In this document: positions 45,857-48,524 of the stretch, piece by piece | Layout of the letters: each line of letters opens with the position of its first letter | Numbering within the stretch: the stretch's first letter is position 1 | Assembly: GCF_001894785.1 (NCBI RefSeq) | Contig: NZ_BCWW01000008.1 | Location: 124,001 to 188,000 of the forward strand | Reading direction: 5' to 3' | DNA length: 64,000 nt | Source: Rhodococcoides fascians NBRC 12155 = LMG 3623 | Lineage (GTDB): Bacteria; Actinomycetota; Actinomycetes; Mycobacteriales; Mycobacteriaceae | The notes under the pieces: model-generated | The model's database searches: none | What the model was told of the DNA's origin: nothing | The model's input: the letters and a program-made list of their open reading frames with translations, nothing else | Translations under genes and position numbers: made by a program

Positions 45857-46291
45857 GTGCCACTCTCCGAGCACGAGCAGCGCATGCTCGATCAAATCGA
45901 GAGCGCTCTCTACGCCGAGGATCCCAAATTCGCGTCCCATGTGAGGGGCGGTCGCGTTCGCGCGGCGTCGAGCAAGAGGCGTTTTCAGGCTGCCGCGTTG
46001 TTCGTCGTGGGACTCGTGTTGCTCGTCGCCGGTGTAGCACTGTCGACGAACAGTCTGGGTTTTCTCGTCGTCAGCCTCATCGGCTTTCTCTTCATGTTCG
46101 GTGCCGGGGCACTGTTCTTGTTCGGCGGCTCCAAGAAGGGAGCTGCCGCGACCGGCGAAGAAGGTAGCGCAAGCGACCGAGCCGGCACGCAAGGTCGTAG
46201 TGCTCAGCCGAAATCGAGTGGTGGCCGCAAGGGCGGCAGCTTCACCTCTCGAATGGAAGACCGTTTTCGTAAGCGGTTCGATCAGGAGTGA
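45857..46291 (+). CDS. DUF3040 membrane protein
   Basis: A 144-residue protein, counterpart of Rv2169c. The N-terminus PLSEHEQRMLDQIESALYAEDP is the DUF3040 signature, followed by two membrane helices (about 44-62 and 69-89) and a basic, Gly/Ser-rich cytoplasmic tail ending RMEDRFRKRFDQE. No enzymatic motif is present. GTG 45857 has GGGGGAGG 6 bp upstream. Function is unknown; proximity to the division cluster is conserved in Actinobacteria and suggests an envelope role. Confidence 0.85.
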   Translation: MPLSEHEQRMLDQIESALYAEDPKFASHVRGGRVRAASSKRRFQAAALFVVGLVLLVAGVALSTNSLGFLVVSLIGFLFMFGAGALFLFGGSKKGAAATGEEGSASDRAGTQGRSAQPKSSGGRKGGSFTSRMEDRFRKRFDQE

Positions 46292-46352
46292 TATGACTCC
46301 GCCGTCCGGATCTCCCTGGGCCTGACGGTCACCCACCACAACTTCACCGATT

Positions 46353-46392
46353 CGACAGCAGCACCTCACCCTCGGGTGAGGTGCTGCTGTCG
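46353..46392. terminator. 18-bp hairpin terminator after DUF3040 gene
   Basis: 46353-46370 pairs perfectly with 46375-46392 around a CTCG loop, 62 bp after the stop. It separates the DUF3040 gene from the mraZ control region and is symmetrical enough to stop transcription from either side. Confidence 0.8.
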
Positions 46393-46526
46393 TTCCACGG
46401 CTCTTCGATACGGCGAGCATTCCGTAGCCCCTGTCGCGCGGCGTGCTCGATCAAGTGCGCCCCAGCGACGACGCGGGGCGATCGTTCCCGTGCGGTGGTT
46501 CCCGGGTGGTGGTTCCGGGGCGAACT

Positions 46527-46583
46527 CCCCACTTCCCCCCACAGCCGCCATTGTCCCCACTTCACCCCACCCAGTCCCCACTT
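46527..46583 (-). promoter_or_regulatory. Upstream array of MraZ-type boxes, reversed
   Basis: Read on the minus strand, GTGGGG occurs five times (plus-strand CCCCAC at 46527, 46537, 46555, 46565 and 46576), with 10-11 bp steps inside each of two groups; three are the fuller AAGTGGGG. These match the boxes in the mraZ promoter but point the other way. No gene starts here on either strand. Confidence 0.6.
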
Positions 46584-46739
46584 TCAGGGTCCAGCTGCGC
46601 TTGTCAGGCGGGTTGTCGCACAAAGTGCCTGCTCGCGACGCCGCGCGCCCCGGGGGATTGCGTCGGCCAGATCAGGGCCGACGTCGAACGCGGCAACCTG
46701 AACGGGCAATCTTCTTGCGTCTGAGCTGCGGATATGTGG

Positions 46740-46748
46740 TTGTCCACA
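46740..46748 (+). promoter_or_regulatory. DnaA-box-like 9-mer upstream of mraZ
   Basis: TTGTCCACA equals the high-GC actinobacterial DnaA box. It lies 26 bp before the MraZ boxes and 85 bp before the mraZ start. A single 9-mer can occur by chance. Confidence 0.45.
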
Positions 46749-46773
46749 AAGTTTTCGGGCTGTGAATGGTTCG

Positions 46774-46800
46774 AAGTGGGGGAGAGTGGGGTAAAGTGGT
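46774..46800 (+). promoter_or_regulatory. MraZ operator: three AGTGG boxes with 10-bp period
   Basis: GTGG cores begin at 46776, 46786 and 46796, each within an (A/G)AGTGG context. MraZ proteins bind short direct repeats of this type spaced by one helical turn in their own promoters. The array ends 32 bp before the mraZ start codon. Confidence 0.75.
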
Positions 46801-46832
46801 CCGCAGCGGAGAGTCGAGGCTGGAGGTGGCGA

Positions 46833-47264
46833 GTGTTTCTCGGTACCTACACGCCGAAGCTCGACGACAAGGGTCGACTCACGTTGCCGGCCAAGTTTCG
46901 GGACGCGCTTGCGGGAGGTGTCATGGTGAGCAAGGGGCAGGATTTCAGCCTTGCTGTCTACACCGCGGCAGACTTCGCAGAGCGTTCTCGAAAGTTGACG
47001 GCGGCCTCTCGTGCCAACCCCAAAGCCCGTGCCTATGTGCGCCAGTTCTTTTCGGGAACCGACGAACAGCGGCCGGACGGACAGGGCCGTATCACCATCA
47101 GTCCCGAGCACCGTCGGTATGCGGGACTCGAACGCAACTGCGTGGTGATCGGATCGATGGACTTCATCGAGATCTGGAACGACGAAGCCTGGGCCCGCTA
47201 CTCCGCCGAGAACGAGCAGGATTTCTCCGACGCGTTCGACGAATCCCTCGGAGGGATCTTGTAG
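46833..47264 (+). CDS. mraZ: Transcriptional regulator MraZ
   Basis: A 143-residue AbrB-fold regulator made of two SpoVT/MraZ repeats. The first begins [23 protein letters not shown]; the second carries [20 protein letters not shown], each with the D-x-x-G-R DNA-contact motif. It forms ring-shaped oligomers that bind repeated boxes in the dcw promoter. GTG 46833 is preceded by GGAGG at 6 bp. Three matching boxes lie just upstream, so autoregulation of the division operon is likely. It corresponds to Rv2166c. Confidence 0.93.
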
Positions 47265-47304
47265 ACCACCGAGGCCGGCTGCGAGTGCAGCGAGGCCTCT
47301 GCCC

Positions 47305-47381
47305 GATCAGAACCCTGACGTTCTTCCCCAACGCCAGGTTTCGCAGATCAGGACCCTGACGTTCTTCCCCAACGCCAGGTT
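47305..47381 (+). ncRNA. Two-hairpin leader RNA before rsmH (mraW RNA-like)
   Basis: Two 36-base copies (47305-47340 and 47346-47381, one mismatch, 41-base period) each fold into CCTGACGTT-CTTCCCC-AACGCCAGG, a nine-pair stem with one A/C mismatch and a CUUCCCC loop. They lie in the 219-bp gap between mraZ and rsmH (mraW), where the actinobacterial mraW RNA motif is known; I recall CUUCCCC hairpin loops as its hallmark but cannot compare with the model here. Confidence 0.7.
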
Positions 47382-47483
47382 CCCTATCGGACAGGGACCT
47401 CGAAGCATTCGCACCGGCCGCAATGGACGACCCGCAGGGCCCGGACCCGGGCGAGAAGTACGTATACGCAACCGGGAGGGACC

Positions 47484-48524
47484 ATGACGGAGGGAGCCGG
47501 GCCGGACGAGAACGACGCGTCCGCCGACCGCACTCACCGTCGCTCCGGCGGCCCGATCCACGTCCCCGTTCGACTCGAGCGTGCCGACGAGCTTCTTGGG
47601 CCCGCAGTGGAATCGGCGGACGACCCCGACACGACTCGGGTCATGATCGACGCCACGCTCGGACTCGGCGGTCACGCCGAACACTTTCTACGGAAGTATC
47701 CCGGTCTGCACCTCATCGGACTCGATCGCGATCCTGACGCGCTCGACAAGGCGGGTGCCAGACTGGCCCCGTTCTCGGATCGAACGACTCTGGTGCACAC
47801 CACATACGAGGGCATTGCCGCCGCCCTAGACGAGGCCGGACTTCCCGCGACCTATTCCGTTCACGCCATCCTGTTCGACCTCGGAGTGTCGTCGATGCAG
47901 CTGGACGAGTCGGACCGCGGCTTCGCGTATTCCGTCGATGCACCGCTGGACATGCGGATGAATCCGACGCAGGGCATCACGGCAGCCGACGTGCTCAATA
48001 CGTACTCGCACGGCGATATCGCTCGCGTGCTCAGCACCTACGGAGAAGAGCGGTTCGCAGGCAAGATCGCGTCCGCAATTCTGCGGCGACGTGAGCACAC
48101 GCCGTTCACGACGAGCGGCCCGTTGGTCGAATTGCTGTATGCCGCAATACCGGCCGCGACTCGCCGCACCGGTGGGCATCCGGCAAAGCGAACTTTCCAG
48201 GCGCTGCGTATCGAGGTCAACGGGGAGCTCGATTCGCTCAAAGCCGCGGTGCCGGCCGGACTCGACGCCTTGGCCGTCGGCGGCCGCGTCGTCTTCATGT
48301 CGTATCAGTCGCTCGAAGATCGAGTTGTCAAGCAGGAGTTGGCCCCTCGGATCAAGTCTCGAAGTCCCGAGGGGTTGCCGGTCGAACTTCCCGGGATGGG
48401 TCCGGAATTTCGGCTGTTGACCAGAGGTGCGGAACGCGCCTCGGACGAGGAAATCGAAGTCAACCCACGCTCGGCCCCGGTGAGGTTGCGCGCCGCCGAA
48501 CGGATTGCAAGGAGAGCGGAATGA
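47484..48524 (+). CDS. rsmH: 16S rRNA (cytosine(1402)-N4)-methyltransferase
   Basis: A 346-residue SAM-dependent methyltransferase (formerly mraW). The SAM motif I is [16 protein letters not shown], followed by [29 protein letters not shown] and [11 protein letters not shown] are family signatures, and [14 protein letters not shown] lies near the C-terminal half. It methylates C1402 in the ribosomal P site. ATG 47484 has GGGAGGG upstream. An N-terminal acidic/basic extension of about 25 residues precedes the domain. Its stop overlaps the ftsL-like start (ATGA). It corresponds to Rv2165c. Confidence 0.95.

Follow-up and report, generated by a model that had tools for sequence, protein, structure and literature searches.

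The regulator MraZ, the gene of which heads the bacterial division cluster, is highly conserved among bacteria; in our view, little is understood of the way in which it controls the division and cell-wall genes. In Rhodococcoides fascians NBRC 12155 (= LMG 3623), mraZ is situated in a stretch of 64,000 nucleotides, here called the window (contig NZ_BCWW01000008.1, positions 124,001 to 188,000; coordinates are counted from the first base of the window). Two arrays of short boxes precede the gene. The near array lies on the plus strand within the predicted mraZ promoter, and the far array, whose function is considered here, lies further upstream on the opposite strand. The features are as follows.

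46527..46542, minus strand: outer far pair, GTGGGGGGAAGTGGGG, at a distance of 257 bp to the anchor box (46786)
46555..46570, minus strand: inner far pair, GTGGGGTGAAGTGGGG, at a distance of 229 bp to the anchor box (46786), with which it is in phase
46576..46581, minus strand: one additional box of the far array, 11 bp away from the inner pair
46770..46775, plus strand: predicted -35 element, TTCGAA, from the sequence and the column consensus of relatives
46775..46799, plus strand: near array, three AGTGG boxes at 46775, 46785 and 46795 with an exact 10-bp period
46792..46797, plus strand: predicted -10 element, TAAAGT, which has the form TANNGT in relatives; separated by 16 bp from the -35 element and overlapping boxes 2 and 3
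46822-46826, plus strand: GGAGG, a ribosome-binding-like site for mraZ, from the sequence
46833..47264, plus strand: mraZ, GTG start; PF02381 at 123.1 bits, TIGR00242 at 105.3 bits (cut-off 98.35)

The near array has the three boxes and the exact 10-bp repeat described in an earlier, sequence-only reading of this DNA. Imperfect boxes are found on either side of it, AATGG at 46765 and AGCGG at 46805. Upon searching the 64 kb with the three-box pattern, allowing up to two mismatches, three overlapping matches were found, all at the near array, where 0.11 would be expected. The -10 elements of actinobacteria often have the form TANNNT. The column consensus of the near array over 203 loci is TTGAAA - GTGGGGGAAAGTGGGG - TANNGT, with the TTGAAA columns at 52-70%; the near anchor (the box at 46786 in the window) is defined by the TA of the -10 element, so that its frequency of 100% in near arrays arises by construction. 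The counterpart of the -35 element in relatives is often TTGAAA or TTGACN, and in other orders of the class TTGAC replaces TTGAA at many loci. The near boxes are therefore predicted, from sequence, to occupy the 16-bp spacer between the -35 and -10 elements and to overlie a TANNNT-type -10. A regulator bound in this position would be predicted to occlude the promoter.

The arrangement resembles the autoregulatory MraZ operators of E. coli, Mollicutes and Burkholderia, in which GTG direct repeats with a 10-bp period are situated in the promoter of mraZ, shortly before the gene; in the window, the gene directly downstream of the near array is the cognate mraZ, as identified by the TIGR00242 and PF02381 profiles. 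The Burkholderia operator has been described as four repeats of 7 nt separated by 3-nt spacers (PMC7761207; here and below, the cited papers are represented by excerpts). The position differs. The arrays of Burkholderia and, as cited in PMC7761207, of E. coli are downstream of the -10 element, over the start site in Burkholderia, whereas in the window the predicted location is upstream of and over the -10.

The far array extends from 46527 to 46581 on the minus strand. All five GTGGGG cores reported by the sequence-only reading were found (46527, 46537, 46555, 46565 and 46576), but not the unbroken series of 10-11 bp steps. The steps are 10, 18, 10 and 11 bp, and the far array thus consists of two 10-bp pairs and one extra box rather than a continuous ladder. 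About 194 bp separate it from the near array (46581 to 46775), in agreement with the earlier estimate of roughly 190 bp. It has the same box and the same 10-bp period as the near array, as would be expected of a second MraZ operator.

An origin by chance or base composition, in C-rich intergenic DNA of high-G+C genomes, has in its favour that GTGGGG by itself is not enriched, with 39 occurrences in the window against 46 expected; it is therefore the ordered clustering, and not the count, that is unusual. The pair motif GTGGGGNNAAGTGGGG, which has 14 specified bases, gives three matches in the 5.77-Mb genome with at most one mismatch, one at each of the far pairs and one in the near array. The reversed motif, used as a control, also gives three genome matches, showing that the number is ordinary while the concentration at the mraZ locus is not. 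The comparison with relatives leaves this explanation a negligible probability. A pair situated 60-450 bp upstream of the anchor occurs in 177 of 183 distinct loci of the family Mycobacteriaceae, whereas shuffled sequences of these family-level loci had such pairs in a mean of 3.1 (maximum 7 in 30 shuffles). Plus-strand pairs in the same 183 loci number 8, against 2.7 in shuffles. Chance and composition are ruled out at the family level by the shuffles together with the strand control.

The far pairs are widely conserved. A minus-strand pair lies upstream of mraZ in all 37 distinct Rhodococcoides loci and a plus-strand pair in none of them; the DNA flanking the boxes has, as judged by eye, diverged widely among these loci. 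Counted over distinct loci, 176 of 182 family loci have a minus-strand pair. Among the loci L050-L111, which are mostly Mycobacterium and Corynebacterium by name, pairs were found in 60 of the 61 of sufficient length, and most of the other genera sampled in the family have them too. With a stricter motif, minus-strand pairs occur in 172/182 loci of the family, 23/43 of other families of the order and 8/23 of other orders of the class; the corresponding plus-strand pairs number two, one and one. These figures refer to the following samples. The mraZ gene was found in 396 of 401 family genomes, part of which were read, and the named loci are the nearest 80 of 553. Outside the family, 43 of the 54 genomes of the order search and 26 of the 51 mraZ-bearing genomes of the class search were read, 23 of the latter being usable; most of the omitted genomes are among the most divergent. 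The genus labels of the named loci were assigned from their record names and GTDB naming and are presumptive, as are the organism names of g1, g3 and g29, which depend on them. The sequence-only reading had proposed this comparison of mraZ upstream regions, in which retention of the near array with loss of the far one would have spoken against its proposal; the far array is conserved.

The spacing between boxes in these loci has its main peak at 10 bp (305 pairs), followed by 23 bp (109), 13 bp (66) and 33 bp (61), and the corresponding count for GTGG is flat. Spacings of 9 or 11 bp account for 22-23 pairs each. The runs of GGGG present in both arrays might form G-quadruplexes, as has been proposed for the mraZ promoter of Staphylococcus aureus (PMC11796246). 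Quadruplexes would require neither the exact 10-bp box period nor the helical phasing between the arrays described below, and this explanation is retained as a minor alternative of very low probability. The number of far pairs differs among species. Within the family a spacing of 23 bp between two far pairs is frequent, and in many Rhodococcoides outside the closest relatives of the window the spacing is 40-41 bp.

The phasing of the far pairs was analysed in a set of 287 loci. In six the upstream sequence was too short (L217, L080, L154, L171, L144 and L278), and three of the remaining 281 lacked a near-array anchor (L135, L274 and L288); after removal of 30 duplicates, 248 distinct loci were left. 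One of the three, L135, carries a GTGGGGTA box and a minus-strand pair, yet does not conform to the anchor pattern. The loci L219-L223 are outside the set: L219-L221 are pieces of the window's own genome, and L222 is from the same genome as L216. L216 has no minus-strand pair, and L223 has pairs. Strict minus-strand pairs were found in 203 of the 248 loci and strict plus-strand pairs in 4, so that, judged by sequence, most of them have a candidate second operator for the same protein at a distance. The far pairs are mostly 85-400 bp from the near array. Their distance to it has a period of 11.2 bp, and none of 3000 null sets was as strong under either of two nulls. The distance from the far pairs to the start codon, analysed in the same way as a control, has no periodicity. 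The spacing of the two sets of sites is thus tied to the DNA helix, as it is for operators joined by a loop.

The far pairs might instead serve to titrate or store MraZ, as additional binding sites with no contact to the promoter. Any conserved site would account for their presence, and the variable number of pairs among species suits such a role, but it leaves the near-fixed orientation unexplained and gives no reason for a period relative to the near array when there is none relative to the start codon. A storage function is therefore quite unlikely.

The near-fixed strand, the 10-bp pairs, the restriction to the locus and the helical phasing suggest that the far array probably represents inverted auxiliary operators of MraZ, which would contact the promoter-bound complex by looping of the DNA. 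The looping preferred by the sequence-only reading has thereby gained strong comparative support, while the loop itself is something we infer, as are the binding of MraZ to the far boxes and the repressive effect. MraZ has been described as an octameric ring (PMC7761207), and it is reported to act as a repressor in both E. coli and M. genitalium (PMC8475190); a repression loop would suit a protein with these properties. In the proposed mechanism, MraZ would occupy the far pairs on the opposite strand as well as the near boxes, which lie within the -35/-10 region of its own promoter. The DNA would then fold back, the far and near complexes would touch, and the promoter would be repressed. The inversion of the far sites may reflect the geometry of this assembly. 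A PDB sequence search returned the MraZ entries 1n0e, 9qlr, 9sx6, 9sz7, 9qlg, 9r4j and others; in the recent ones (9qlr, 9sx6, 9sz7, 9qlg and 9r4j) the number of MraZ chains per entry ranges from 4 (mean for 9qlg and 9r4j) to 36 (9qlr).

A repression loop of the lac type differs from that proposed here in the protein family and in its sites, the lac operator being a palindrome, whereas the sites described here are short direct-repeat arrays with the far one inverted relative to the near one. The two are alike in having a second site for the same regulator, a putative one in the present case, at a spacing tied to the helix, and the period of 11.2 bp falls within the 10.95-11.60 bp found for lac loops in vivo (PMC1762422). 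The present period was obtained by comparing species and not from engineered spacings, and the loop is deduced. Distal inverted MraZ sites are not described in the titles and abstract openings of the matches listed from the open-licence MraZ literature, nor do they occur in the excerpts on the known MraZ operators.

Several observations weigh against a loop between MraZ complexes. Only the inner far pair of the window fits the common phase of 11.2 bp, the outer one being about 0.4 turn off. Rhodococcoides alone (g1) prefers a period of 10.35 bp, and there is no phasing in Corynebacterium (g3). The loci share kinship, for which the corrections are approximate. The pair is missing from six of the 183 loci, all of them members of the family (L053, L142, L187, L205, L213 and L216), and from many loci outside the family, including all four loci read of one genus (g42, family f12). 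Furthermore, it was the proximal fragment that Burkholderia MraZ bound, and its site was assigned there (PMC7761207).

The partner of the far complex could also be RNA polymerase at the mraZ promoter, with the far pairs binding MraZ as an upstream activator site and not as part of a repression loop. The near boxes are fixed relative to the predicted -35 and -10 elements, so that phasing to the boxes is equally phasing to polymerase; because of this constant place in the promoter, the data do not separate a contact between MraZ complexes from one between MraZ and polymerase. In Mycoplasma gallisepticum, overproduction of MraZ accompanies raised FtsZ (PMC8475190). Activation is nevertheless unlikely in view of the repressor role reported for the E. 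coli and M. genitalium proteins, and of the near boxes overlying the -10 element, which fits repression.

The region to the left of the far array contains two further features.

45857..46291, plus strand: gene of the DUF3040/SCO2097 family, upstream of and codirectional with mraZ, from profile matches
46353..46392, no strand assigned: hairpin directly after the DUF3040 gene, from the sequence

The hairpin was noted by the sequence-only reading as the possible end of a leftward non-coding transcript controlled by the far array, a reading that extends here to an antisense or small transcript. The array is oriented as a leftward promoter array would be, the hairpin to its left is strong, and two small minus-strand open reading frames overlap the array (46344-46565, 73 aa; 46366-46623, 85 aa). 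Nevertheless, such a transcript is very improbable. The TA of a -10 element is present at the matching position in one of 326 far pairs, in accordance with the earlier failure to find a convincing -10, and the four columns before the boxes of these pairs have no TTGAAA-like consensus. A generic sigma-70 scan of 46200-47000 gave no site, which is weak evidence, since this insensitive scan misses the near promoter too. No gene of the annotated type starts at the far array, as had been stated, and the small reading frames are not kept at full length: among 60 loci of the genus, each has its only full-length match at its own locus, and matches of any kind were found in 21 and 9 loci, own copies included, the others being partial or weak. 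The hairpin directly follows the plus-strand DUF3040 gene, comparable hairpins are seen by eye at the same place in close relatives, and it is likely to be a plus-strand terminator. Upstream of mraZ in 203 loci, the DUF3040 homologue is directed rightward in 169 and leftward in none, and it was not found in 34; none of the 169 has a far pair inside it. A leftward promoter at the far array was rejected on the grounds that the far pairs almost entirely lack the -10 TA and have no -35-like columns, that the DUF3040 homologue is leftward in none of the loci in which it was found, and that the small reading frames are not conserved at full length, other leftward genes and non-coding RNAs not having been searched systematically. 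No known RNA family matched above the Rfam gathering score in 46000-47600.

Another conserved element is situated close to the near array. GAGCTGC at 46723-46729 on the plus strand forms part of a GA[CG]CTGC-like element, the loose motif of which, following a 7-mer scan between the arrays, was found in 107 of the 248 loci, compared with 24 of 248 in a control stretch. The first match is 62-64 bp upstream of the anchor box in 91 of the 107. It may be bound by another regulator, for instance MtrA. In Dietzia, a fragment of 100 bp from the region upstream of mraZ was bound by MtrA (PMC9602371), which would constitute another input at the same promoter, but by a different protein. On the other side of mraZ, the gap between mraZ and rsmH has a match to the Rfam mraW RNA (RF01746) at 47277-47420 on the plus strand, which at 47.2 bits stays below the gathering score of 50 and has an E-value of 2e-8. 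Within this match, ctgacgttcttccccaacgccaggtt is seen by eye twice (47305-47385, plus strand).

A loop formed by MraZ between the inverted distal operators and the promoter of the division and cell-wall (dcw) cluster could tentatively be extended across Mycobacteriaceae and, more patchily, Actinomycetes. In that somewhat doubtful case the loop would be old, its spacing having changed mostly by full turns of the helix as the intervening DNA diverged, and the cluster could respond to supercoiling, because the helical period in vivo depends on supercoiling. If looping is correct, insertions of a full turn between the arrays should be tolerated and those of a half turn should not. The analysis also suggests that the helical period which a regulatory loop has in vivo can be read from evolutionary spacing data alone. 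Helically phased operators throughout the family would make MraZ a loop-forming regulator rather than a simple blocker of its promoter.
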